A stretch of DNA of 34,418 bases. Source: a virus. Each line of letters starts with the position of its first letter. Position 1 is the first letter of the stretch. Under the pieces are notes generated by a model. That model was not told the DNA's origin. It saw only the letters and a list, made by a program, of their open reading frames with translations, and ran no database searches. The DNA lies in IMG/VR virus record IMGVR_UViG_3300030508_000050, positions 1 through 34,418 of that record, one strand, 5' to 3'. A program made the translations under genes and the position numbers. Positions 4,956 through 34,418 of the stretch are shown piece by piece.

Positions 4956-4984
4956 TTGCAAATGGATGAAATACGTGCTATTGT
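4956..4984 (+). promoter_or_regulatory. Rightward sigma70-like promoter (early)
   Basis: TTGCAA, a 17-base spacer ending GTGC, then TATTGT: an extended -10 promoter. The GTGCTA at the -10 is shared with the promoters at 4706-4734 and 6480-6508. The predicted start is near 4991, and the transcript would carry the small inverted repeat at 4995-5012 and the hairpin leader at 5016-5085 before the first rightward gene. Confidence 0.6.
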
Positions 4985-4994
4985 GTTTTTGCTT

Positions 4995-5012
4995 GTCATG
5001 TAAGCCCATGAC
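4995..5012. repeat. Short perfect inverted repeat (possible operator)
   Basis: GTCATG (4995-5000) and CATGAC (5007-5012) are perfect 6-bp arms around six bases. The position directly at or after the predicted start of the rightward promoter fits an operator or a 5' RNA hairpin. No repressor gene is recognised in the window, so its partner is unknown. Confidence 0.4.
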
Positions 5013-5015
5013 TTT

Positions 5016-5085
5016 AAAAAACCGTTAGCGTTCGGGCCGCGCCACCTAGTGTGGGGCTTCACGGCTGGAACATTACCGGTTTTTT
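5016..5085 (+). promoter_or_regulatory. Hairpin leader ending in T-run at the ATG
   Basis: The arms AAAAAACCG (5016-5024) and CGGTTTTTT (5077-5085) are perfect complements. Nested inside are GTTC/GAAC (5030-5033 with 5068-5071), GCCG/CGGC (5036-5039 with 5062-5065) and CCAC/GTGG (5042-5045 with 5051-5054). The final six T residues touch the ATG at 5086. This looks like an attenuator, or a folded leader controlling the first rightward gene. The similar arrangement before the portal gene strengthens that reading. Confidence 0.55.
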
Positions 5086-5340
5086 ATGTCTAAAAACATG
5101 AAGTTTGTTTGGCAGGATTTAGGTAAGCAGTTGGACTTTCTACCAATGGATTCACGGCGAGCTTTTTTCATCCGCTTGCTCTTGGTCGGGGAGAAAGTGA
5201 ACTTAACAGACGCACCCCACATACCTGGTAGGCATGATTCCACGAGCCAAGTAGGTAAGAAACTAAAAAAGAATCTTTTACAGCATGGAGGAGTGATGAT
5301 TAAGGGAGATATCGCCTGGATTCCAGAGGCCAAAAAATAA
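5086..5340 (+). CDS. Small basic protein, first rightward gene, 84 aa
   Basis: An 84-residue basic protein with Lys-rich ends. The central part (about residues 20-60) may form a small helical fold, and the C-terminus reads as a short beta segment. I do not recognise a family. It is the first gene behind the rightward early promoter. Its ATG directly follows the six-T run of a folded leader, and the replication initiator gene starts one base after its stop (TAATATG). Position and charge would suit a DNA-binding regulator or replication accessory protein, but nothing in the sequence proves it. Confidence 0.55.
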   Translation: MSKNMKFVWQDLGKQLDFLPMDSRRAFFIRLLLVGEKVNLTDAPHIPGRHDSTSQVGKKLKKNLLQHGGVMIKGDIAWIPEAKK

Positions 5341-5341
5341 T

Positions 5342-6094
5342 ATGCGCGAACTTGCTGGCGCGTCTATATGGTCTAGGAAGACTCTCGAGAGTGACGTGTT
5401 CTTTTGGAAGCCTGATAAGTGGTTCAAGATTTGGTTCTGTCTCGTCCAGTTAGCTAACTACAAAGATGAAAAGCAGTTCAAACGTGGGGAAGTCCTGCTG
5501 ACCTACAACGAAATTCAGCTATATACCAAGGCTTCTAAGCATCAAATCGAGAGTTTCATAAAATGGGCAAAGGAGCAGGGTATGTTGGGGACACGGAAAA
5601 CCACACGCGGAATGTTCATTTCTTTGCTTAACTACGATAAATATCAAACACTAGAAAATTACAAAAGCCACACGGAAACCTACACAGAGGGGAAACGGAG
5701 GGGAAACGAAAGCCACACTATAAATAAGAATGTAAAGAATGATAAGAATGTAAAGAATACTGAACTGCCAGCTCTCGCTGGCGGCGATGAAGTCAATCAA
5801 GTCTTTAAGAGATTTTACGATACCCTCAACCCCCAAATACAATTCGGAAACCTAACCCAACGCAAGGCCGCAGAATCGCTTATAAAGCGTTACGGCATCC
5901 AAAAGGTCATAGCAGCCATAGACTATGCCGTAAGCGTGTCTGGAGACGTTTACGCGCCAACCATAACCACTCCAGTACAGCTACGTGACAAGCTCGCAGC
6001 CTTAATAGCTCATCAAAGCAAAACAAAAACCGATCCGCACAAACAAACAATTGAATCCATGACGGTACGAGCTAAAAAACCTCAAACAAACTAA
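5342..6094 (+). CDS. Phage replication initiator-like winged-helix protein, 250 aa
   Basis: The N-terminal half (about residues 15-105) fits the helix-turn-helix/winged-helix replication proteins of phages. It has FFWKPDKWFKIWF, FKRGEVLLTYNEIQ, SKHQIESFIKWAKEQG, MLGTRKTTRGMFISLLNYDKY. A low-complexity linker at about 105-142 follows, and the C-terminal part (about 150-220) is a helical domain that may load the host helicase. The linker DNA contains two perfect 17-bp direct repeats, as in the origin inside lambda gene O. I infer an O-like initiator that binds repeats in its own gene. No helicase or polymerase is encoded here, so replication probably relies on the host. Confidence 0.75.
   Translation: MRELAGASIWSRKTLESDVFFWKPDKWFKIWFCLVQLANYKDEKQFKRGEVLLTYNEIQLYTKASKHQIESFIKWAKEQGMLGTRKTTRGMFISLLNYDKYQTLENYKSHTETYTEGKRRGNESHTINKNVKNDKNVKNTELPALAGGDEVNQVFKRFYDTLNPQIQFGNLTQRKAAESLIKRYGIQKVIAAIDYAVSVSGDVYAPTITTPVQLRDKLAALIAHQSKTKTDPHKQTIESMTVRAKKPQTN
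5724..5758 (+). repeat. Two perfect 17-bp iteron-like direct repeats (putative origin)
   Basis: ATAAGAATGTAAAGAAT occurs at 5724-5740 and again at 5742-5758, with one base between, an 18-bp period close to two helical turns. The repeats are AT-rich and lie in the linker-coding part of the initiator gene. This matches the layout of the lambda origin, where O-protein iterons sit inside gene O. It is a candidate replication origin. Confidence 0.5.
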
Positions 6095-6098
6095 TTGT

Positions 6099-6479
6099 AT
6101 GAAAACCAATGCTATTATCACGTTTACAGGATCACATCTTTTAATAGGTTCCGAAGAAAACGAGGCACTAAAAATAATCCATGCCGATCAATGGTTTGAA
6201 ACATTCGATGGCCAGAAAATAAAAGGTTCAGCCATTGCTGAGATTTTAACCATCCAGCAGTATTACGAACGCTACCCCGACAAGCGGCCTGTAGAAACAG
6301 CTAAAGAATTTACTGGGATTACTGGAGAAACAATTAACAGTACGATTTACAAAAGCGATGCGGCTCGCAAAGGAATTATGAAAGGTTTGCAGGATTACTG
6401 CGACGAAAACCCCGAAGCGAAAAATGCGAAGTTTATGCTAGAGTCAATTAAGCTCAATAAGAAAATACAATTTGTATAA
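6099..6479 (+). CDS. Unknown protein, 126 aa
   Basis: A soluble-looking 126-residue protein. The N-terminal 40 residues look beta-rich, followed by helices from about residue 50. No catalytic motif, Cys cluster or membrane segment is seen. It follows the initiator gene by four bases and precedes the promoter at 6480, so it is the last gene of the early rightward unit. The segment around residues 60-90 (KEFTGITGETINSTIYKS) could be a helix-turn-helix-like stretch, which would fit a regulator, but I would not rely on it. Confidence 0.55.
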   Translation: MKTNAIITFTGSHLLIGSEENEALKIIHADQWFETFDGQKIKGSAIAEILTIQQYYERYPDKRPVETAKEFTGITGETINSTIYKSDAARKGIMKGLQDYCDENPEAKNAKFMLESIKLNKKIQFV

Positions 6480-6508
6480 TTGACAATTCAACTTTTTTGT
6501 GCTAACCT
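6480..6508 (+). promoter_or_regulatory. Rightward sigma70-like promoter upstream of structured region
   Basis: A perfect TTGACA (6480-6485), 17-base spacer ending TGTGC, and TAACCT (6503-6508), with TGC giving an extended -10. It begins right after the stop codon at 6477-6479. Predicted transcription starts near 6515, exactly where a 6-bp hairpin begins, and would run through the non-coding region into the terminase small subunit and chaperonin genes. Confidence 0.65.
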
Positions 6509-6509
6509 A

Positions 6510-6767
6510 ACCACATACCATCACTGGTATCGTCCAGCTACTCACGATAGAGAGCGTACAGGCAACACGCGGGCAAGCAATCACATTGTCACATGGATAA
6601 TGTCCTCGAACTGACTTGCCCCTCCTAGCCTGATTCGTCTTTAGAGACACTGTGTGAATGGTTATTTGTACTTTCTAATCTAGGAATCTACTTGACCTTC
6701 ACACGGTATCTGTACAGGAGAAATTAAACCACCGAAACGTAGTGGATACGGAGCTTGAATCTATTAT
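6510..6767 (+). ncRNA. Structured non-coding region, candidate phage RNA or long leader
   Basis: There is no convincing reading frame here. Several stems can be seen: ATACCA/TGGTAT (6515-6520 with 6525-6530), GGGCAAG/CTTGCCC (6571-6577 with 6615-6621) enclosing ACATT/AATGT (6583-6587 with 6599-6603), a ten-pair stem 6649-6658 with 6698-6707 (one G-U pair), CCAC/GTGG (6729-6732 with 6742-6745), and a long-range GTACAG/CTGTAC (6556-6561 with 6710-6715). It starts at the predicted transcription start of the 6480 promoter. It could be a regulatory leader, a stable RNA, or, because it precedes terminase, a packaging-related RNA or site. Only the pairing and position are seen. Confidence 0.5.
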
Positions 6768-6833
6768 ATGAAAGTCTTCGTTTTAAGTAGCCTATGCGCG
6801 TCCGCTGTCACAAGGATCATTTATAAAAAATGA
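6768..6833 (+). CDS. Possible tiny ORF, 21 aa
   Basis: A 21-codon frame (MKVFVLSSLCASAVTRIIYK...) starts at ATG 6768 in a TATG context and ends nine bases before the terminase small subunit ATG. The upstream box GAATCTATTATATGAAAG is nearly repeated before the scaffold gene at 14474, which suggests a shared initiation signal. The peptide is mildly hydrophobic. It may be a leader peptide rather than a functional protein. Confidence 0.3.
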   Translation: MKVFVLSSLCASAVTRIIYKK

Positions 6834-6842
6834 ATAAATATT

Positions 6843-7271
6843 ATGCCAGCAGGAAGGCCAACACTGTTTAATAAAGAAACTTGCCGTATGGCGCGGGAGT
6901 ATATTGTTAATTGTAAAGACAAGTTAGGCGGACCGGTTCCAATAGTAAACTTACCAAAGGCTCCTGGCATGGCAAATTGGCTGGGAGTGAACATAGACAC
7001 GCTCTACGAATGGGCAAAGGTTCACCCTGAATTTTCCGACGTATTAGATGAATTAAACCAAAAACAGCAGGAAAAGTTGATAGATCATGGACTCGCCGGC
7101 AACTACAACGCCAACATCGCCAAGCTCGTTTTGGGCAAGCATGGCTACCACGATAAATCAGAAACAGAACACTCGGGACAAATCAAAACTAGCAACGTGG
7201 AACAGACACCGGAAGTCTTAGCGGCTCTTGCAAAACTTGAAGATGTGTTAAAGAAAACCATGATCAAGTGA
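6843..7271 (+). CDS. terS: Terminase small subunit
   Basis: This 142-residue protein resembles phage terminase small subunits. It starts MPAGRPTLF, has a helix-turn-helix-like region MANWLGVNIDTLYEWAK followed by HPEFSDVL at about residues 45-72, and then ANIAKLVLGKHGYHDKSE, a stretch typical of the family. The protein recognises the packaging site on phage DNA and feeds it to the large subunit. The large subunit gene is not adjacent here. GroES, GroEL and three other genes lie between, which is uncommon. The start has T at -1 and no Shine-Dalgarno. Confidence 0.8.
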   Translation: MPAGRPTLFNKETCRMAREYIVNCKDKLGGPVPIVNLPKAPGMANWLGVNIDTLYEWAKVHPEFSDVLDELNQKQQEKLIDHGLAGNYNANIAKLVLGKHGYHDKSETEHSGQIKTSNVEQTPEVLAALAKLEDVLKKTMIK

Positions 7272-7304
7272 TCGTGGATTACTAATTATTTTCATAGCGG
7301 GACT

Positions 7305-9192
<1,888 letters not shown>

Positions 9193-10009: not shown

Positions 10010-10343
10010 GCAACTTGAGGTATGTATTTATTGTGGTCACAAGGATAGTTTCTTGCTCGACGACATTAACAAGGCACGAGGTTGGAAGTCTCGCTACTGG
10101 CGTTCACATTTGAGGAGCTTCTGTCAGCCACAAGGTCTAACAGAACCAATCTATCGAATGATTTACGGCTATGGTGTGAAGACTAAGGCAGAACAAGAGC
10201 ATGAGCGCAGGATTGAGAAGGAAACACGACATGCTGATTGGGAGATTGGTACGCATGAGAAGTTTCAGCATGCAATAAACAATCCGAATTTCGATCCTAA
10301 ACGCTCAACTATTAAGAGACGTAATGAGATGATGAGCCAATGA
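9978..10343 (+). CDS. Basic protein with CxxC, possible terminase accessory, 121 aa
   Basis: The frame overlaps the end of the upstream gene. ATG 9978 is my choice, but it has C at -1, unlike almost all other starts, so the true start is uncertain. The core begins VCIYCGHKD (one CxxC), followed by WKSRYWRSHLRSFC and a basic, helical C-terminus rich in Arg, His and Glu. It ends in ATGA overlapping the terminase start, so the two are coupled. A small zinc-binding DNA protein is likely. A role in packaging is inferred from the overlap only. Confidence 0.5.
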   Translation: MFRVRHSNQREQLEVCIYCGHKDSFLLDDINKARGWKSRYWRSHLRSFCQPQGLTEPIYRMIYGYGVKTKAEQEHERRIEKETRHADWEIGTHEKFQHAINNPNFDPKRSTIKRRNEMMSQ

Positions 10344-11959
10344 ATCTCAAAGATGCTGAAAATCAAAGTATTATCGCCTGGATAAACTCAAACCAAATCA
10401 AGACAGAGAATGGTAAGCCTTTTGATCTAAATGAACACCCTTATCTTTGGGACATCCTGAAAGACTGGTCACCCTTCCAAGTTGTTCTAGCAGCTGCCCA
10501 GTGTGGTAAGACGACAACGTTTCTTCTCAAGATGTTGTGGGCAGTAAAGAACTTTGGAATCAACGCAGTATATACAATGCCTACAGTTACTGATGCGCAT
10601 GATCTGGTGAGCGGTAAACTCGATCCTATTGTCAATGAAAATCCTGTTTTACAGAGTTGGATAAGCGGAGATAAGGACAGTGTTGAACAGAAGCGTATAG
10701 GACAAAATACAGTCTACTTGCGTGGTACCTGGACTGAACGCGCAGCCCTATCATTCTCAAGCGATCTAAACATTCACGATGAAGAAGATCGGTCTAATCA
10801 ACCCGTAATTGACCAATATGTCTCGCGCCTCCAACACTCGAAAAAGAAGTGGCAATGGCGATTTAGTAACCCTTCTTTTGAAGGAAACGGAGTTCATAGA
10901 TTCTGGCAGGAAAGCGATCAAAAGCATTGGTTTGTTACTTGTGGATTTTGCAAAAAGCAACAGTTTCTTCAATGGCCAAATAACGTGGATCAACAACAGA
11001 AAAGATTTATATGTGCAGCTTGTGGGCAAGAAATATCAGATAACGATAGACGTCACGGAGAGTGGCATGCCAGAAAATTTGAAGTAAAGCCAAAATATAG
11101 TGGTTACTGGATCAGCCAGCTCATGGTTCCTTCGGTAAGTGCGGCAGAGATCATTGAAGCCCACAGGACGATGACAGCCGAGAATTTTAGCAACTTCGTC
11201 TTAGGCCAACCGTTCGTTGGAAGCGGCAGCAAGATGACTGAGGATAAGCTTTTCCAAAACCTTAAGGATTATGAGCAACACACCGAAGAAGATCCCGTTG
11301 TTATTGGTGTTGATACCGGACTCCCAATTTGGTACGTCTGTGGAAATAAAGACGGAGTGTTCCATTGGGGATCTTGCGAGTCTTATGATGAGCTTGAACG
11401 GCTCCTCAAACGCTGGCCTAAATCTATCCTGGTTAGCGATCAGGGAGGCGACCTTATCGGCATTAGAGAGTTGCAAGAGCGATATAATGGCCGCGTGTTT
11501 CTCACTTACTACAGGCGAGACAGAAAAACCCAACAGCTCATTCAATGGGGAGAAGGAAGCGAGTACGGCAAAGTAGTTGTAGACCGCAACAGGACGATTC
11601 AGATGTTGATTGATGAGTTTAGTGCCAAGCGCATTCCGATCTACGGCACACGAGAGGACTGGCAACAAGTTTGGCTGCACTTTGCTAACATTTACCGAAC
11701 AGAAGAAGAGGATAAGTTAGGTGTAAAGCAATATGTATGGCAACGAAACGGGCCAGATCACCTCGTCCACGCACTCGTCTATTTTCGCGTGGGAATGGAC
11801 AAGTTTGGATTCAAAGACGGCGGAAACTTTGTTGATCCTAATGCGTTTGATTGGAATTCAATCCCTCAAGCGCCAATAACATCTTATGATGGAAAAACCT
11901 CTTGGGTTGGGATCAATAACCGTCGTCCTGAACGGGACAGGGATTGGCGTGACATCTAG
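10340..11959 (+). CDS. terL: Terminase large subunit, GpA-like
   Basis: The 539-residue protein is the packaging motor. An ATPase Walker A-like AAAQCGKTT lies at residues 51-59 and a Walker B LNIHDEED at 143-150. A zinc-finger insert has Cys201, Cys204, Cys225 and Cys228. The nuclease domain shows Asp325 in IGVDTG, Asp367 in LVSDQGG and Asp473 in GPDHLVHAL. The zinc insert and motif spacing are like the lambda GpA family. The start overlaps the upstream stop as ATGA. Packaging strategy (cos or headful) cannot be read from the gene itself. Confidence 0.88.
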   Translation: MNLKDAENQSIIAWINSNQIKTENGKPFDLNEHPYLWDILKDWSPFQVVLAAAQCGKTTTFLLKMLWAVKNFGINAVYTMPTVTDAHDLVSGKLDPIVNENPVLQSWISGDKDSVEQKRIGQNTVYLRGTWTERAALSFSSDLNIHDEEDRSNQPVIDQYVSRLQHSKKKWQWRFSNPSFEGNGVHRFWQESDQKHWFVTCGFCKKQQFLQWPNNVDQQQKRFICAACGQEISDNDRRHGEWHARKFEVKPKYSGYWISQLMVPSVSAAEIIEAHRTMTAENFSNFVLGQPFVGSGSKMTEDKLFQNLKDYEQHTEEDPVVIGVDTGLPIWYVCGNKDGVFHWGSCESYDELERLLKRWPKSILVSDQGGDLIGIRELQERYNGRVFLTYYRRDRKTQQLIQWGEGSEYGKVVVDRNRTIQMLIDEFSAKRIPIYGTREDWQQVWLHFANIYRTEEEDKLGVKQYVWQRNGPDHLVHALVYFRVGMDKFGFKDGGNFVDPNAFDWNSIPQAPITSYDGKTSWVGINNRRPERDRDWRDI

Positions 11960-11987: not shown

Positions 11988-12128
11988 ATGCATTTTGATA
12001 AGATCATTGCTTTCGCGCAGGACGGATTATTTGATATGACACAGGGAAGTTTTGTCGCTCACTTTGATGATTTGGGTAACTATTCTAAATGCGAGAAACA
12101 TTTATATTTGACACATCCAAAAGTTTAG
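11988..12128 (+). CDS. Small ORF after terminase, 46 aa
   Basis: I take ATG 11988 (TATG context) as the start, because a longer frame would run inside the terminase gene. The 46-residue product is acidic and aromatic and ends KHLYLTHPKV, with a single Cys. The -35 box of the structural-gene promoter lies inside its last codons. No family is recognised. It is supported only by start context and lack of overlap. Confidence 0.4.
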   Translation: MHFDKIIAFAQDGLFDMTQGSFVAHFDDLGNYSKCEKHLYLTHPKV

Positions 12129-12136
12129 TGTTTAAT
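12108..12136 (+). promoter_or_regulatory. Strong sigma70-like promoter for structural genes
   Basis: TTGACA (12108-12113), an exact 17-base spacer and TTTAAT (12131-12136). Transcription should begin near 12143, at a small hairpin (12140-12157), and meets an intrinsic terminator about 30 bases later, just before the portal gene. This makes it a candidate regulated late promoter. Confidence 0.65.
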
Positions 12137-12139
12137 TCT

Positions 12140-12157
12140 AGCTAGAAAGCCCTAGCT
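12140..12157 (+). promoter_or_regulatory. 5' hairpin of structural transcript
   Basis: AGCTAG (12140-12145) and CTAGCT (12152-12157) pair perfectly around six bases. It overlaps the predicted transcription start, so it is either an operator or the first RNA hairpin. In some lambdoid phages promoter-proximal RNA hairpins modify RNA polymerase to ignore terminators. That comparison is a hypothesis here. Confidence 0.35.
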
Positions 12158-12169
12158 TGTAACGAGAGG

Positions 12170-12201
12170 GGCGACAAGATTCATTCTTTGTCGCCTTTTT
12201 T
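12170..12201 (+). terminator. Intrinsic terminator just upstream of portal start
   Basis: GGCGACAA (12170-12177) and TTGTCGCC (12188-12195) form a perfect 8-bp GC-rich stem, extended by G-U pairs, followed by six T residues (12196-12201). It is a textbook intrinsic terminator, yet only two bases separate it from the portal ATG. It could end the terminase transcript, and it also lies downstream of the promoter at 12108, so it would act as an attenuator for the structural genes. Confidence 0.8.
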
Positions 12202-12203
12202 GT

Positions 12204-14093
12204 ATGGCTTCAGGCATCGGTCGCAAACGATCAGAGACAGGTGGAATCAACCCTGCACTTAAGGGCATTATTGACCAAGTGGGTGGTCTTTTCGCACCTT
12301 TCAACAAAACAAAGAAAGCTATTGATAACCAAACAGAAGGGCGCATCACCTCACCCGAGGATGTTCTTAGTTTGGAGATGACTGACGAGGAGTTATCAAC
12401 ACTCACTTCTACATGGACTTCTGAGTTTGCTGGTTACTACGCGGAAGTAAAGATGCGTTCTTCAAGGAACTTCAAATACTACAAAGGTGAACATTACGGA
12501 ATGAGCAATGGTCACACAGGCAATGGTGATGGGTATGGAATTGTAGATAACGCAATCTTCCAAGCCGTTGAAACGTTGTTACCGATGGTAGCCCGTGAAG
12601 ACCCTGAACCAAACGTAGAGACTGATGATACAGATACAGGTATTGCTTTAGCCGACGCTGTAGGTCGTAGTCTTGAAGACGTATCAGACAAAGTACATTT
12701 ACGCGTTAAAGTCCGGTCCGCGGTGCGAGACTGGTTGATTGACTTACTCGGAGTGCTAAAAGTTACGTGGAATCAAAAGACTTTATCAATCAACGTTGAA
12801 AAGGTTGATCCAAAGAAACTTATTATTGATCCTAAAGGAACGTTTGATGGTGGCAAGTTTACAGGTCGTTACATCGGTCAATACGTGTTTGATTCAGGTG
12901 AAAACCTGATCGTGCGTTTCCCAGAGCAGAAGGAATGGCTCACACGTGCATGCGGTGGAAAATTAGGTACCGTACTAGGCTTTCGTGAGTGGTGGACTTC
13001 TGAATATGTCTTTTGGGAGATGCGCGGGCATATCTTGGATAAGAATAAGAATCCTCACTGGAATTATGGTTACGATGAACCAATTAAAGGTGATGATGGA
13101 GAGGAGACTGGCGAGACACAACAAGTTCTTGGAGCTAACCATTTCATTCATCCTGAAATGCCATTTAGCTTCATGTGGTTCTTCAATGATGGTGAGCGAC
13201 CGTTTGACTTCACTTCGTTCATTGAACAATCAATCTCGATGCAAGACTTGTTAAACAAGCGCACCAAACAGATCGACAAGAATGCCGACGATTCAAATAA
13301 CGGTTGGGTATTCTCTAACAAGATGGATCAGGATCAAGCTACACAAGCCGTAGCTGCGTTAAAACGTGGTGGAGCTATCAGGGCACCAGGTGACGACATT
13401 ACAAAGGTTGTGCAGCGATTTCAAGCTCCTGCGTTACCAGCGTATATCGTCGAGGATATTCAAGATAAACGTTTAGAGATTCAGAACATCTTCGGGATTC
13501 GTGGTGTTACGCCTTCCGGTACTGCTTCCGAAGAATCAGTGCGTGGTCAGATCATTAAAAACCAAGACGACACATCGCGCTCGGCTCCTGTCGTTGAACA
13601 GATCGAGCAAATGGTCGATTTCGTTTTCAACTACATGGCACAGATGATGTACGTCTATCAAGATGAGCCAAATGAAGAGGGTGTTGCAAAGACTGATTTG
13701 ACTAAGATTTTGAACATCACTGTTGAAGAGGGCTCAATGCTCCCACGCAATCCTTTGATGCGACGCAACGAAGCAGTTGATCTATTTGGCTCTGGGTCTA
13801 TAGACATTGTTACGGAACTTGAACGCCTTGAATATCCCGATCCAAAAGCAACCGCAGGGGCAGCCATGTTGCTCAAGATAAACCCCATGGCCTATATGCA
13901 AGCGTATACGACGCTTTCACCAGAAGCCATGCAAGCGTTACAGCAAGCCATGGCTCCTCAACAGGCTCCTGCGCCCGCAGCACCACAACAGCCAGCAGCT
14001 CCACCTCCACCTGCTGCACCGCCTGGTCCACCCCCAGCGCCACCTGGCCCTCCAGGACCTGCCGCACCAGTCCCAATGCCGCCTATTCAATAA
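12204..14093 (+). CDS. Portal protein, 629 aa
   Basis: Size, position after terminase and before scaffold and capsid, and the internal pattern identify a podovirus-like portal. It has an early charged helix and tyrosine-rich segment (FKYYKGEHYG), a long alpha-beta core, and a helical stretch IFGIRGVTPSGTASEE then QIEQMVDFVFNYMAQMM. The portal forms the dodecameric ring through which DNA is packaged and ejected. The last 47 residues are almost only Pro, Ala, Gly and Gln, an unusual disordered tail. The ATG follows a terminator T-run by two bases with no ribosome-binding site, so translation initiation here needs explaining. Confidence 0.8.
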   Translation: MASGIGRKRSETGGINPALKGIIDQVGGLFAPFNKTKKAIDNQTEGRITSPEDVLSLEMTDEELSTLTSTWTSEFAGYYAEVKMRSSRNFKYYKGEHYGMSNGHTGNGDGYGIVDNAIFQAVETLLPMVAREDPEPNVETDDTDTGIALADAVGRSLEDVSDKVHLRVKVRSAVRDWLIDLLGVLKVTWNQKTLSINVEKVDPKKLIIDPKGTFDGGKFTGRYIGQYVFDSGENLIVRFPEQKEWLTRACGGKLGTVLGFREWWTSEYVFWEMRGHILDKNKNPHWNYGYDEPIKGDDGEETGETQQVLGANHFIHPEMPFSFMWFFNDGERPFDFTSFIEQSISMQDLLNKRTKQIDKNADDSNNGWVFSNKMDQDQATQAVAALKRGGAIRAPGDDITKVVQRFQAPALPAYIVEDIQDKRLEIQNIFGIRGVTPSGTASEESVRGQIIKNQDDTSRSAPVVEQIEQMVDFVFNYMAQMMYVYQDEPNEEGVAKTDLTKILNITVEEGSMLPRNPLMRRNEAVDLFGSGSIDIVTELERLEYPDPKATAGAAMLLKINPMAYMQAYTTLSPEAMQALQQAMAPQQAPAPAAPQQPAAPPPPAAPPGPPPAPPGPPGPAAPVPMPPIQ

Positions 14094-18401: not shown

Positions 18402-19124
18402 ATGCAACTTTTCAGCAAGAAAGAAGTTCAAAAAGATTACGACGAGCAAAAGGCCGCTGTAATTTTGGAGACGGTAAAAATTACCAAGGCTCTTGCTGAA
18501 AAGACGAACGATCTGAACCGCCTCAATGATGAATTGAAACTAAAGAAACTCACGAATGAACGTGATTATAAAGCCTTCATAGAACCTCTAACTATAAGCA
18601 AGAATGCCCTCGAAACGACTGTTTGGGAGCTTGAGAAACGTAAATCTAAAGCCCTTGAGCCTCTACAAGAGTTTGAGACAAGTCTAAAGGCGAAAGCCGA
18701 GTGGTTGGAGGTTAGGATGCAAGAGATCGCATCTAAGGAGTTTCAAACAAGCCAACTTCACGAACAAGTAGAACAAACCTTACGTGAGGCCAAAACATCA
18801 TTGGCGGTTGCCTCGAAAGAAAAAGCCAATGCTATTTCTCTCAAGACAAGCGCAGAGCAAAAAGTAAAGCTTGCTCAAGCGGAAGCTAAAAAGTTAAGAG
18901 AAGAAACACAAGTACGATGTGATGCAGTAGCCCATGAGGAGGAGAAGTTAGAACGTAAATATCAAGCCTTAGATCACGATCGAGATGATTTGAATGCTCA
19001 AGAACTTCTGGTGGATGAGAAACGAAAGGAATTGAAAGTCCTTGAAAGTAAGATCGCTGATGATCGTCAGAAGTTAAAATCGGCCCTCGATCTAATGAAA
19101 ACCAAATATGCCACAAATAGATAA
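18402..19124 (+). CDS. Coiled-coil protein, 240 aa
   Basis: Nearly the whole 240-residue sequence is a charged coiled coil (continuous Lys, Glu, Gln, Ala and Leu heptads). It lacks Pro after the start and has no membrane segment. Such rods occur in tail shafts, fibres or internal scaffolds. It overlaps the start of the next gene by 17 bases, so it is probably co-translated with the small fibre-module protein. The function is inferred only as a rod-like virion or assembly protein. Confidence 0.5.
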   Translation: MQLFSKKEVQKDYDEQKAAVILETVKITKALAEKTNDLNRLNDELKLKKLTNERDYKAFIEPLTISKNALETTVWELEKRKSKALEPLQEFETSLKAKAEWLEVRMQEIASKEFQTSQLHEQVEQTLREAKTSLAVASKEKANAISLKTSAEQKVKLAQAEAKKLREETQVRCDAVAHEEEKLERKYQALDHDRDDLNAQELLVDEKRKELKVLESKIADDRQKLKSALDLMKTKYATNR

Positions 19125-19391: not shown

Positions 19392-21293
19392 ATGGCAGCA
19401 CCCGATGGAAACGCGCCAAGAGATGCAAACTCACGTCCAACCCTTTTAGCGGTTGATGCAACGACTGGTTTGGTGTGTCCAGTTCAAGTTGATTCAAGCG
19501 GTCGGCTCCTTTTATCCGTGACTGGTTCTTTAACACTAGCCATTGGTGACACGATTACTAGTGCGACACAGGGTTCTGTTTTATTTGTTGGTCCAGCCGG
19601 TGTCCTTGCCCAAGACAATGCCAAGTTCTTTTGGGACGATACGAACTTTCGTTTAGGGATTGGCACAGCTTCGCCAACGGCTACTCTTTCCGTAGCGCAA
19701 ACAGCATCTTCATCAGGCGTGCCCATCACAGCCTTGTTTACGCCAGCATCCAATACAGCAATCACGCTCTCGACAAACGCGCCGCAATTTATACTTGCAA
19801 CCTCAACGCAAACCTACGCGACAGGTGCATTGGCTGAATACGATTACGCTCAATTCAATGCGCCCACTTTGGCGTTCGCGGGAGCTTCGACAATTACTTC
19901 TGCGGCTACGTTTACTATTTCAGGTGCTCCAATTGCTGGTACGAATGCTACAATTACGAATGGGTATTGTTTATGGTCTAAAGGCGGTGTAACTCGTTTA
20001 GATGGTCAGCTTCAAGTAAACGCCTCCGTGTCAACAGGCTACCTTAGTATGGGTTTATGTACGGCTTTTTTTCATCGAGCTAATGGTTCGGGTGAAGCAA
20101 TCATCACTAATGATGTAACGCAAGTCTTACAAATAAGTACGTCGAGTTCAGGTACATCCAATGAATCCTATTTTGCAGTTAATAGTGGTGTTGCAGGTAG
20201 TTATGGTTTAATTGTTGGTTTTACTGAAAATAATGGCACCTTCGGTCGTGCAGGGGTCTTTCGAGTTGTACCGAATAATGCGACACTTCAGTTTATTGTG
20301 AACAACACTACAATTGCTTTAGCGGTTGCAGCCACTGGCTCACAAGTATGGAACGGGTCTGCAGCTTCATCTGGGGCAGTTGCTTTTTCTTCATGGACGC
20401 CGCCAAATAATACGGGTATAACGACCACAGTGAACGCTCCAGAATTCTTGTTCGTTACGTCTACTCAAACGTGGGCGACAGGTACGGTTGCAGAGGCTGA
20501 TTACATGCAAATTAATGCCCCTACTTTTGCTGCTGCTGCTGCTTCTACCTTTACTGTGGCTTCGACCGTAACTATTTCTGGTGCTCCGATCGCGGGAACG
20601 AATGCGACCATCACACAGGGTTATGCTCTAAACATCGCTGGTGGTGCTGTTGGATTCACAGGCGGTGCTTCGACGGCTACGACGAACAATGCTCAAATTT
20701 GGAGCAATTCTGGTCAGCTCAACTTATGGGCCAAGAATAGCGGTGGAATGATTTTGAGTGCGGGTGGTGGGCTAACTCACCTTGCTCTTACACCCACAGG
20801 ATCAGTCACCATCACGCCTACCAATACAAGTTCGGCCCCAGCTTCGCTTTCCATCACTCCACCGAATTTCTCGTCGATCACAGCCACAAACAACGCTCCA
20901 CAGCTGAACATGGTCACGTCTACGATGACATGGGCCACAGGTACCGTTGCAGAAGCAGATTACGTTTTATTTAATGCCCCGACGTTTGCCGCCGCCGCCG
21001 CTTCAACTTTTACCGTTGCATCAACGGTAACTATCAGTGGCGCACCCATCGCAGGCACGAACGCGACGCTCACCAACGCCTACGCCATCAACGTGAAGGC
21101 TGGCTTGTCTCGCTTCACGGGAGGTATTGATCTTTCGGGCATTGGAAGTACGACAGCCAATATCACCTACACCGCGACCACCTCGACCCCAGCGACGACC
21201 TGGACGTCTGGAGCAACGACCTCTAACCCACAAGGATTTATCAAGGTGATCACGGGTGGAGCGACCGTCGGATATATCCCTGTTTACTCCTAA
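19392..21293 (+). CDS. Tail fibre-like protein with three repeated domains, 633 aa
   Basis: The first 42 residues form the module shared with the proteins at 19108 and 21544. Three copies of an 85-90 residue unit follow at about residues 113-198, 331-418 and 482-572. Each ends in TISGAPIAGTNAT followed by a short beta segment. The Thr/Ala/Gly composition and lack of charges fit a trimeric beta-helical fibre. I expect a receptor-binding or fibre shaft protein, anchored by its N-terminal module. DNA identity between copies 2 and 3 is high, so the region can recombine. Host receptor and enzyme activity are not evident. Confidence 0.65.
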   Translation: MAAPDGNAPRDANSRPTLLAVDATTGLVCPVQVDSSGRLLLSVTGSLTLAIGDTITSATQGSVLFVGPAGVLAQDNAKFFWDDTNFRLGIGTASPTATLSVAQTASSSGVPITALFTPASNTAITLSTNAPQFILATSTQTYATGALAEYDYAQFNAPTLAFAGASTITSAATFTISGAPIAGTNATITNGYCLWSKGGVTRLDGQLQVNASVSTGYLSMGLCTAFFHRANGSGEAIITNDVTQVLQISTSSSGTSNESYFAVNSGVAGSYGLIVGFTENNGTFGRAGVFRVVPNNATLQFIVNNTTIALAVAATGSQVWNGSAASSGAVAFSSWTPPNNTGITTTVNAPEFLFVTSTQTWATGTVAEADYMQINAPTFAAAAASTFTVASTVTISGAPIAGTNATITQGYALNIAGGAVGFTGGASTATTNNAQIWSNSGQLNLWAKNSGGMILSAGGGLTHLALTPTGSVTITPTNTSSAPASLSITPPNFSSITATNNAPQLNMVTSTMTWATGTVAEADYVLFNAPTFAAAAASTFTVASTVTISGAPIAGTNATLTNAYAINVKAGLSRFTGGIDLSGIGSTTANITYTATTSTPATTWTSGATTSNPQGFIKVITGGATVGYIPVYS

Positions 21294-21302
21294 AATCCTT
21301 CT

Positions 21303-21542
21303 ATGACCCTCGCACTCGTTCAGGATGCCGACGGAAACAACGCGCTTCAGGTCACTGCCGACAACGGTTCGGTACAAGTGTTCTCTAAAGAACAAGTTGA
21401 TGCCATCCAAGCAAATACACAGGCACAAACACCTATCGTAACCGCCGCCGTTGCGCTCAACACACAAGCTCTCGCTGATTGTGAAACGATGGAAGCGTTT
21501 TGTGATGCGAATACAATTATTGTTCCATTAACCACACCTTAA
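21303..21542 (+). CDS. Small protein between fibre genes, 79 aa
   Basis: A 79-residue protein with no membrane segment. It starts with a short beta-like stretch (MTLALVQDADGNNALQV) and has a helical middle. It lies nine bases after the triple-repeat fibre gene and one base before the next fibre-module gene (TAATATG). A fibre assembly chaperone or small virion protein fits the position, but no family is recognised. Confidence 0.45.
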   Translation: MTLALVQDADGNNALQVTADNGSVQVFSKEQVDAIQANTQAQTPIVTAAVALNTQALADCETMEAFCDANTIIVPLTTP

Positions 21543-32523: not shown

Positions 32524-32613
32524 ATGAAAATTACGTCCTTCAAGGCGGGGGTCTACAAGCAACAAGATGAGTACAAGAGGATACAGAAACAGGCTCCGTT
32601 CGGAGCCTGTTTT
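32524..32613 (+). ncRNA. Candidate short transcript between late genes and terminator
   Basis: Between the extended -10 at 32512 and the terminator at 32587 a transcript of about 90 bases is predicted. It has an ATG at its first base, opening a frame (MKITSFKAGVYKQQDEYKR) that reads into the terminator and on against the NinG gene. If transcription stops at the terminator, only a stop-less peptide frame is made, so a small RNA is the simpler reading. A remnant of a protein N-terminus is the alternative. Confidence 0.35.
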
Positions 32614-32620
32614 ATTATTT
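32587..32620 (+). terminator. Strong terminator between convergent operons
   Basis: AAACAGGCTCC (32587-32597) and GGAGCCTGTTT (32602-32612) form a perfect 11-bp stem with a GTTC loop, followed by TTTTATTATTT. It ends rightward late transcription. On the minus strand the same stem follows the NinG gene (stop at 32617-32615) and has a weaker T-run, so it probably works in both directions. Confidence 0.85.
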
Positions 32621-33022
32621 CGTCAAAGTTTTCAAAAGTGCTTTATATTTTTCTATCATGTCTTGATACCATTCAACCGTGTATTTTACTGACATTCTTG
32701 GTTTACCAAATAGGTAATCATAGCGTTCAGGAAATTTGGCTTGGAACCAGTCACCAGCTTCAATAGGATTCTTGTGCCACCAATTTATGTGGCAGTGATA
32801 ACAAAGTGTCTTGATGTTCAAAGGATCGAAACGGAATTGATTCCCAGCAGATACAGGGATGACGTGTGACCCGTGACAATCTGATCCTGTAACGTACTTG
32901 CCGCACCGCTGACAAATGTTTTTGTCCCTTATTTTCACGAATTGTTTTACTAGAATCTCAAGTTGTTTTTTCAAACGACTTATTGATGGTTTCTTTTTGG
33001 ATTTTACTTTGAAGTAGTTCAT
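32615..33022 (-). CDS. ninG: NinG-like recombination protein
   Basis: The 135-residue protein matches the phage lambda NinG family. It has a basic helical N-terminus, then Cys37/Cys40 in CQRCGK, CHGSH (Cys49, His50, His53), LCYHCHINWW (Cys74, His76, Cys77, His78), and KNPIEAGDWFQ. NinG substitutes for RecFOR-type functions and contains an HNH-like zinc region, so it acts in recombination. This fits with bet and the exonuclease in the same leftward transcript. The start overlaps the upstream stop as TAATG, one of the few starts without T at -1. Confidence 0.85.
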   Translation of the reverse strand: MNYFKVKSKKKPSISRLKKQLEILVKQFVKIRDKNICQRCGKYVTGSDCHGSHVIPVSAGNQFRFDPLNIKTLCYHCHINWWHKNPIEAGDWFQAKFPERYDYLFGKPRMSVKYTVEWYQDMIEKYKALLKTLTK

Positions 33023-33375
33023 TAGGATATTGTATCACTTTTGCTGGGGTTTATCAGCATCAAAGTCTCAATGCTTGGAAATGCCTCATGGATGCCGAGC
33101 GATGCCAGATGACGATTCACCACGTCATACACCAAATCAATTTCCTTTGTGGACAAGTCCGCCGTGTGTTCCTTTTGAACCAGTATTCTTTGAACCGTCT
33201 TCCATAGAAGAATTTTGACCGTCTCTGGCGACCATGGAATCTCCATGTCGGGGAGTGACGCCTTGATTTCTATTCCAGCGGCATTCAAAGACGTGGCAAC
33301 GAGAGTAAAGTATAAATGCAAAGCTCGATTCTGTGATAGCGTTCTCTTGTTATCTATTTTTGGTTTCTCTTCCAT
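33022..33375 (-). CDS. NinB-like phage protein, 117 aa
   Basis: The 117-residue protein contains KRTLSQNRALHLYFTLVA and later IPWSPETVKILLWK and VYDVVNRHLASLGIHEAFPS, the signature of a frequent phage family that I know as uncharacterised and that resembles NinB (which also has a LDQNRKLWA segment). I start at ATG 33375-33373, one base after the upstream stop (TGATATG), rather than at an upstream TTG. Linked translation with ninG suggests a recombination role. NinB homology is tentative. Confidence 0.65.
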   Translation of the reverse strand: MEEKPKIDNKRTLSQNRALHLYFTLVATSLNAAGIEIKASLPDMEIPWSPETVKILLWKTVQRILVQKEHTADLSTKEIDLVYDVVNRHLASLGIHEAFPSIETLMLINPSKSDTIS

Positions 33376-33776: not shown

Positions 33777-34013
33777 TTATTCAGGTTGTTCCAGTTTGTT
33801 TTCTCCGCCTTCAAAACCCAGAAAATGGATAGAGGCATCGTTACACCTACAGACTCCTTCCTTTTGCGTCTTCTTCAATTCATCTATCAAATCCTCTACG
33901 CACTTGTGTTGTTCAAAATAGAATTCACTTAAGTTTTCTTCATCAGGATCATTTGAATAATCCGGCGCATCTATAACCATTTGAATTCGTAGTTCAACTA
34001 ATGCCTTTTTCAT
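33777..34013 (-). CDS. Acidic early protein, 78 aa
   Basis: The start is ATG 34013-34011 (TATG context); a TTG start farther upstream is less likely. The product is acidic and helical, with DAPDYSNDPDEENLSEFYF in the middle and Cys pairs at about residues 38 and 54-56 (VCRC). No domain is known. It lies downstream of the repeat-protein gene in the leftward operon. Confidence 0.5.
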   Translation of the reverse strand: MKKALVELRIQMVIDAPDYSNDPDEENLSEFYFEQHKCVEDLIDELKKTQKEGVCRCNDASIHFLGFEGGENKLEQPE

Positions 34014-34048
34014 AGTGTTGTAGAGCCACAGGTGAGACAAAAAGACAT
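34010..34048 (-). CDS. Possible tiny ORF, 12 aa
   Basis: MSFCLTCGSTTL starts at an ATG with T at -1, contains a CxxC pair and ends in TGA overlapping the next ATG. The coupling is typical of this phage, but at 12 codons chance is likely. It may only carry ribosomes to the next start. Confidence 0.25.
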   Translation of the reverse strand: MSFCLTCGSTTL

Positions 34049-34054
34049 ACAAGC

Positions 34055-34321
34055 CTAGCCGTTGCCGTTGCCGTTGCCGTTTCCGTTTCCGTAGCCGTTG
34101 CCGTTGCCGTCGCCGTTGCCGTTTCCGTAGCCGTTGCCGTTTCCGTAGCCGTAGCCGTTGCCGTCGCCGTAGCCGTTTCCGTAGCCGTCGCCGTAGCCGT
34201 CGCCGTCGCCGTTTCCGTAGCCGTTGCCGTTTCCGTAGCCGTTGCCGTTTCCGTAGCCGTAGCCGTTGCCGTTTCCGTAGCCGTCGCCGTAGCCGTTGCC
34301 TGACGCGATTGTAGTGGTCAT
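34055..34321 (-). CDS. Gly-Asn/Tyr/Asp dipeptide-repeat protein, 88 aa
   Basis: I start at ATG 34321-34319, one base after the upstream stop (TAATATG). After MTTTIASG the protein consists of about 40 Gly-Asn, Gly-Tyr or Gly-Asp pairs to its end. The codon before each residue is GGC or GGA, and the variable residue is always AAC, TAC or GAC. It has no charged residue except Asp and no fold is expected. Such low-complexity sequences can form condensates or fibres, or be adhesive. An early-operon location makes a virion role less likely. Function unknown. Confidence 0.55.
   Translation of the reverse strand: MTTTIASGNGYGDGYGNGNGYGYGNGNGYGNGNGYGNGDGDGYGDGYGNGYGDGNGYGYGNGNGYGNGNGDGNGNGYGNGNGNGNGNG
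34058..34297. repeat. Hexanucleotide satellite, 40 units
   Basis: Forty tandem units of consensus KCCGTH (gccgtt, gccgta, gccgtc, tccgta, tccgtt) with a higher-order 18-base unit (gccgtt gccgtt tccgta) repeated several times. Units keep reading frame exactly. The array is a coding microsatellite and could vary in length between phages. Confidence 0.9.
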
Positions 34322-34322
34322 A

Positions 34323-34418
34323 TTACTCACTCCAGTTCGCCACCTTAGCGATGGACTTTTGAGCTTCTTCGGTACATGGGATTACTTCAATTACTTCTGA
34401 TAATTGCACCTCGTTAAC
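34323..34418 (-). CDS. C-terminal part of a DUF6948-type protein (runs off right edge)
   Basis: The minus strand from the right edge reads 31 codons (VNEVQLSEVIEVIPCTEEAQ and on to NWSE) to TAA 34325-34323, one base before the repeat-protein ATG. The pattern VxLxEVIEVIPCTxxAQxSI is what I expect at the C-terminus of the family seen at 1-133. I infer that it is the other end of that gene on a circular genome. The missing part would be about 45 codons. Confidence 0.6.
   Translation of the reverse strand, partial: VNEVQLSEVIEVIPCTEEAQKSIAKVANWSE

Follow-up and report, generated by a model that had tools for sequence, protein, structure and literature searches.

A folded, apparently non-coding segment behind a predicted promoter before the terminase genes of an uncultivated phage

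Known phage leader RNAs and the terminase locus

Few phage RNAs are known to control RNA polymerase or late mRNAs through nothing but their fold. The put RNAs of phage HK022 are described as promoter-proximal, cis-acting antiterminators of two stem-loops and about 70 nt that serve the early operons, and put alone lets polymerase read through terminators 10 kb or more away (PMC9378689). The segment reported here, positions 6513-6722 of a 34,418-nt stretch of phage DNA (hereafter the window), resembles put in lying close to a (predicted) promoter, in having two main stem-loops and in being followed downstream by a terminator-like hairpin, but differs from it in its length of 210 nt, in two extra small hairpins and in its position before a late operon. 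In late leaders of the lambda pR′ type, a promoter, a leader and a terminator lie ahead of the late genes and are read by Q-type antiterminator proteins. This layout is seen in the window at 12108-12203 rather than at 6480, where the leader is without a terminator and no antiterminator protein was recognised, the 126-aa neighbour having no family match. GOLLD and ROOL, in turn, are structured non-coding RNAs of phages that often lie near tRNA islands, and many GOLLD RNAs exceed 800 nt (PMC12286853). The RNA considered here is likewise structured, phage-borne and apparently non-coding; unlike GOLLD and ROOL, it is much smaller, and the window holds neither a tRNA nor an Rfam match.

We refer to the phage of the window as phage A, to a second phage (G007) as phage B, and to the relatives by L-numbers. 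The segment lies in a gap of 363 bases (6480-6842), which separates a 126-aa gene from the terminase small-subunit gene. The features around it are as follows.

6099-6479, + strand: gene ahead of the gap, 126 aa, unmatched in PHROGs and Pfam, structure model with pLDDT 52
6480-6508, + strand: predicted promoter, TTGACA (6480-6485), N17, TGC, TAACCT (6503-6508)
6843-7271, + strand: terminase small subunit (GP3_package; Pfam PF16677, E 3e-19; PHROGs terminase small subunit)
7305-9192, + strand: GroES (7305-7604) and GroEL (7606-9192), PHROGs 3188 and 5725
10340-11959, + strand: terminase large subunit (terL), PHROGs 675, E 1e-91
12108-12203, + strand: promoter-like site (12108-12136), hairpin (12169-12196) and U-tract; portal ATG at 12204

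The modelled fold of the 126-aa protein, at this pLDDT, was not used as a clue. A TTGACA promoter with an extended -10 had been claimed for the start of the gap in an earlier note on this DNA, and the claim holds: the -35 element is exact and begins on the base after the upstream stop codon, the spacer is 17 bases, and TG stands one base before the -10. The -10 itself is poor, matching TATAAT in only three of six bases, which is why the site is absent from a simple promoter scan. A weight matrix built on E. coli frequencies places it third among 68,756 positions, behind 12108 on the + strand (before the portal gene) and 4946 on the - strand (in the divergent control region), and further TG-n-TA sites built like it are found in both A and B. 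The promoter is likely to be real, and from its position transcription would start at about 6515, within a few bases of the beginning of the fold.

The fold of positions 6513-6722

The segment from 6513 to 6722 is predicted to fold into two small hairpins and two larger stem-loops, listed here together with one alternative helix.

6513-6533, + strand: hairpin at the 5′ end, where transcription is predicted to start, formed by helices 6513-6514/6532-6533 and 6515-6520/6525-6530; pair probability varies with the folded segment from 0.5 to 0.99
6537-6555, + strand: small hairpin of 3+3 pairs; pair probability 0.93-1.0
6559-6632, + strand: stem-loop I, with CAGGC/GCCTG, GGGCAAG/CTTGCCC and ACATTGTC/GATAATGT; main helices 0.97-1.0
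6634-6722, + strand: stem-loop II, with a 10-pair stem (6649-6658/6698-6707) at 0.90-1.0 and lower outer pairs at 0.4-0.9
6556-6561/6710-6715, + strand: alternative long-range helix GTACAG/CTGTAC

Comparison of the folding energy with shuffled sequence, a check that the earlier note had suggested, places the fold beyond chance (z -4.5 to -4.7): positions 6508-6767 have a minimum free energy (MFE) of -78.0 against -58.3 ± 4.3 for the shuffles (z -4.54, 0/200 as good), and 6513-6722 reach -70.9 kcal/mol (z -4.67, again 0/200). The opposite strand gives z -2.15 (4/200 shuffles as good), the reverse strand of the whole gap z -0.82 (21/100), and folding with DNA parameters z -3.08 (1/200). Because 65 of the 70 pairs in the predicted fold are Watson-Crick, this strand asymmetry is only modest evidence for RNA over DNA and is weakened as proof of an RNA. 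Inner helices mostly have pair probabilities of 0.8-1.0. Both the 10-pair stem and the 7-bp stem with an inner hairpin (6571-6577/6615-6621) of the earlier note are present, at 0.90-1.00, whereas its long-range pairing of GTACAG with CTGTAC can form but is absent from the MFE structure; forced, it is about 5.6 kcal/mol worse (-72.9 against -78.5 for 6508-6770) and competes with CAGGC/GCCTG.

How far the segment stands out depends on where a window is cut, since stem II must stay uncut. Among 3,424 windows of 210 nt on both strands, the one at 6513, which was placed by hand, is the lowest of all (z -5.32); among those from even spacing, 6501 (-4.84) and 6521 (-4.90) are second to 11741 on the + strand, inside terL (-5.07), and are followed by 4921 on the + strand (-4.33), the other non-coding leader of phage A. 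A coarser scan of 534 windows of 200 nt, with 24 shuffles each, puts a hand-placed window at 6508 third (-4.92), behind 18721 (- strand) and 12871 (+ strand), while the evenly spaced windows at 6501, in which a stem is cut, and at 6631 score -1.88 and -2.92. Three stretches within genes, 11741-11950 (+), 12871-13070 (+) and 18721-18920 (-), fold as well as the RNA region or better. We conclude that 6513-6722 is a structured segment behind the predicted promoter, and that it is real as a sequence feature.

Another promoter-like site lies within 4956-5086 (TTGCAA..TGCTATTGT), followed by a long hairpin at 5016-5085 (z -4.48 for 4985-5085) that closes with six U immediately ahead of the ATG (5086) at which the first rightward gene starts.

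Gene remnants, relatives and searches for homologues

The folded part is apparently non-coding. Codon log-odds over 6480-6720 run from -0.52 to -0.01 in the six frames, compared with +0.24 ± 0.13 (self-trained) for the true frames of long genes and -0.41 ± 0.20 for false frames. The test is weak near the gap, where the ends of both real neighbour genes score only about 0.0, so that a short coding stretch may lie in the first 130 bases or so; a 44-codon open frame with a TTG start (6480-6614) is without a PHROGs match. A hidden or decayed gene in the folded part was rejected, given no long-gene codon signal and a similarity to phage B proteins no better than chance scores, though the codon test is weak for short stretches. 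Immediately behind the fold, by contrast with it, lie two recognisable remnants of genes that phage B still carries.

6727-6771, + strand: end of a gene for a small membrane protein, comprising its last 14 codons and the stop (..DTELESII, stop), 89% identity to B over 45 nt, E 2e-9
6785-6826, + strand: start of B's next-but-one gene (MRVRC..), 96% identity over 23 nt (6785-6807)

In the former, 13 of 15 residues and the stop agree with the membrane protein of B, and the latter reads MRVRCHKDHL before a stop after 10 codons. The structure ends at 6722, and the folded block sits exactly between promoter and scar. The view of the earlier note that 6480-6767 is one structured non-coding region thus stands up to 6722, without a long-gene signal, but fails at 6727-6771, a decayed gene end; its argument that so much non-coding sequence would be expensive is weaker too, because about 120 of the 363 bases are the scar of lost genes.

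Phage B has a record of its own (35,775 b) and the late-gene order of phage A, with best-segment identities of 38% for TerL, 31% for the portal and 27-28% for the capsid protein. Its late promoter, TTGACA-N17-TAAAGT at 8901, stands almost leaderless before a 79-aa membrane protein, after which come a 97-aa gene, the 106-aa MRVRC.. gene, terS and terL. The two remnants therefore suggest that phage A had, or recombined with, a B-like operon start and lost its first genes, and since B keeps those genes behind its late promoter, the folded block would stand where the first late-operon genes were. No fold was found behind the late promoter of B (+ strand windows over 8861-9081, z 0.3 to 2.8), and a folded non-coding stretch lies farther upstream, at 8194-8437, before its first rightward gene (z -3.73, 0/200).

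Phage A is represented by six IMG/VR contigs, 100% identical over 6400-7300. Two of them (G003 and G005) join the end of the window to its start via 134 further bases, which indicates a circular or permuted genome of about 34.55 kb; both also continue into phage B, probably by assembly joins through shared stretches. Positions 19611-20608, 20913-21502, 32610-33160, 34004-34418 and 1-183 of A are 85-99% identical to B, and such stretches, despite terminases at only 38%, point to recent mosaic exchange between the two phages.

The segment is an orphan in the searches run. No known RNA family fits the region: Rfam (release 15), a search that had been proposed beforehand, gave no match in the window at gathering score, only chance matches on the other strand for 6080-6900 under permissive filters, and nothing of weight in parts of G003 and G005 and in nine relatives. 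Likewise, blastn of the region against phages and plasmids returned no homologue (best E 0.8 and 9), the best match among 50,697 phage records, where HK022 was unchecked by name, being Geobacillus phage GR1 at E 0.8. Two stem-based patterns matched 47 and 12 stretches in IMG/VR, of which only the six phage A contigs are real in each; a match in L187 was dropped as a coincidence on reading. The covariance model R1, which rests on a single sequence entered as two identical rows, was run over 41, 39 and 75 sources. It matched the window, the self-complement of the segment on the opposite strand (E 1.6e-5) and, by chance, L121 (E 0.8), with nothing in the 75 relatives (749 kb), and nhmmer over 1.65 Mb recovered only copies of phage A.

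Those relatives come from a profile of five large terminases, which gave at least 80 loci; among the loci listed, 75 are relatives other than A (43-55% identical). Genes for GroES, GroEL or both are common close to the terminase genes in this group, with matches in 25 of the 75 (e.g., L202, L215, L227, L253, L259 and L274), many loci being too short to show the genes. The GroEL of the window is less than 60% identical to each of 243 matched phage records. A scan of genome contigs with the large terminase found no prophage relatives, and one with GroEL found 10 relatives at 41-46% identity from mixed phyla. The large terminase reading frames of L172 (90-3551, 1153 codons) and L163 (3125-5590, 821 codons) were also seen; in L172 the match to the terminase is broken into three parts with gaps between them, as inteins would do.

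Other members of the group, too, have non-coding stretches that fold strongly upstream of terL. In overlapping 150-nt windows on the + strand of 23 phages (21 relatives, A and B), z of -5 or lower is reached by 18 of the 1,041 non-coding windows and by 7 of the 4,167 coding ones, with 471 mixed windows left out. The best non-coding window is at or below -5 in 8 of the 23 phages, and 13, including A with a best value of -3.6, have no non-coding window at or below -4. Of the folded stretches in the 13 relatives scanned at 210 nt, three are repeat arrays. These lie in L210 (6100-6560), L245 (6150-6500) and L221 (6130-6420), ahead of the late genes, and consist of short repeats, both direct and inverted, in non-coding sequence (CTGCCAGAT, ACGGATTGACGGAT and AGTGGCAT); they are perhaps iterons or operators. 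Leader-like stretches in L253 (2440-2530) and L259 (2550-2670) have a common closing stem (GACAGGGGAA../..TTCCCTGTC and GAAAGGGGAA../..TTCCCTTTC) with one pair that reads C-G in one phage and A-U in its counterpart. This paired difference, a single instance within short common pieces (E 0.65 and 2.3), may be a lead to an RNA family. The stretches of L253 and L259, together with L249 (2260-2370) and B (8194-8437), resemble the RNA of the window in being folded, non-coding and upstream of small genes of the groE/terminase run, but they have no detectable sequence similarity to 6513-6722, and as homologues they were rejected (R1 over 75 relatives). Judged by eye, the L249 stretch may hold an attenuator: its CGAAGGT is complementary to ACCTTCG, and the latter overlaps a terminator-like hairpin (AGACCTTCGTAAGAGGTCT) with TTTTT behind it.

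Possible late-gene control and rival explanations

The sole match of a strict terminator finder in the window is the hairpin with U-tract at 12169-12203, which abuts the portal ATG and lies 5.5 kb downstream in the gene run of the 6480 leader. Terminator-like hairpins occur in 34 of 61 terL-portal gaps of the group (e.g., L172, L210, L213, L224, L238, L241, L249 and L259); among the controls they occur in 6 of 183 gaps after mononucleotide shuffling and in 3 of 119 coding sequences. The count takes in A's own contig (L198), and L227 and L233 share one hairpin. The hairpin precedes the assigned ATG by 6-23 nt in 24 of the 34 gaps, four have no assigned start and six have it more than 100 nt away, and B, L163 and L171 have imperfect pre-portal hairpins, missed by the finder and seen by eye. 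When 30 hairpin-bearing phages were considered (27 finder matches and these three, leaving out the six distant hairpins and the duplicate), 21 had an upstream promoter-like site that outscores at least 95% of 60 stretches drawn at random from the contig concerned. From the start of the -35 to the U-tract there are 76-95 bases in 14 of these 21 and 76-105 in 18, and so the leader would be about 40-60 nt if transcription starts some 36 bases after the -35 start. Hairpin counts and promoter sites together suggest that a block of promoter, short leader and terminator often precedes the portal and the genes after it, a predicted arrangement that recurs in this phage group and of which no description was found in the literature listings that our search covered. 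In other phages, such an arrangement goes with antitermination; here the hairpin could instead protect mRNA or help translation.

We predict, at roughly even chances, that 6513-6722 is a cis-acting 5′ leader RNA of the terminase-GroES-GroEL operon. Transcription would start at the 6480 promoter, 6513-6722 would form the 5′ part of that transcript, and the leader would act in cis on it, after initiation. In the most economical version, the RNA would modify the passing polymerase in the manner of put and allow read-through of later stops such as the pre-portal terminator; a simpler alternative of the same kind is that the leader would protect the 5′ end of a long mRNA. We infer the transcription, the action in cis and the mechanism alike, beside what the DNA itself displays, namely the promoter-like sequence, the fold beyond chance, the scar and the downstream terminator-like hairpin. 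A leader is favoured because the fold starts at the predicted transcription start with that hairpin 5.5 kb downstream, because the folded block fills the space between promoter and scar, the place of the late promoter and first late genes in B, and because non-coding folds upstream of terL recur in the group. Since a terminator-like hairpin precedes the portal gene here and in many relatives, the segment is perhaps a put-like antiterminator. Of the functions that the earlier note had listed, a control leader fits best, and a packaging RNA or DNA site is without specific support, B having no comparable fold behind its late promoter. Against the leader stand the lack of a homologue and, with it, of covariation, the pre-portal terminator of B without such an RNA behind its late promoter, the weak -10, the windows inside genes that fold equally or better (11741+, 12871+, 18721-), and the 13 of 23 phages, A among them, that have no non-coding 150-nt window at z -4 or lower upstream of terL. 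Read-through from 6480 is also not obviously needed, because the structural genes are preceded by a promoter-like site of their own shortly before the terminator.

The segment might instead be a relic, DNA left over from loss or recombination beside the gene scar and folded by chance, which we hold to be rather unlikely. About 120 adjoining bases are indeed decayed gene ends, the promoter could persist after its genes were lost, coding windows reach similar z, and with no homologue and six identical copies there is no variation that would show selection; yet 6513-6722 ranks first or second among the 210-nt folds of the window, it begins at the predicted transcription start, and its similarity to B proteins does not rise above chance. 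The compact fold and the 5′ hairpin adjoining the promoter would also suit a small RNA cut from the leader and acting in trans, by regulating host or phage messages or by binding a protein, but we consider this improbable, as the + strand has no terminator-like hairpin from 6515 to 6842 and phages A and B hold no complementary (antisense) stretch longer than 12 bases.

A DNA packaging site (cos or pac) that the small subunit of the terminase would recognise agrees with the location immediately ahead of the terminase genes, with a circular or permuted genome, and with mostly Watson-Crick pairs that either strand could form. The stems, though, are long and broken by internal loops, unlike short operators, no direct or long inverted repeat of at least 14 bases occurs within 6480-6842, and B has no counterpart before its terminase genes, which makes such a site quite improbable. 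A packaging RNA like the pRNA of phi29 would likewise be a structured RNA of roughly this size adjoining packaging genes. The phi29 system is not known to have an ordinary pair of small and large terminase; phage A has one and no Rfam match, and we give this explanation hardly any weight.

Should the segment be a relic, it documents a late operon that lost its first genes and kept its promoter. If it is a cis-acting leader, it would be a new, unrelated example of control of polymerase or late mRNA by fold, in an uncultivated phage group, and together with the recurrent pre-portal terminator it would open late-gene control in the group to a simple reporter test. More broadly, though we think it unlikely, the group may control its late genes by RNA antitermination, with the structural genes behind the block of promoter, leader and terminator and with lineages carrying unrelated, fast-changing leaders (in phage A, 6513-6722) that let polymerase pass, as larger counterparts of put without sequence relation to it.
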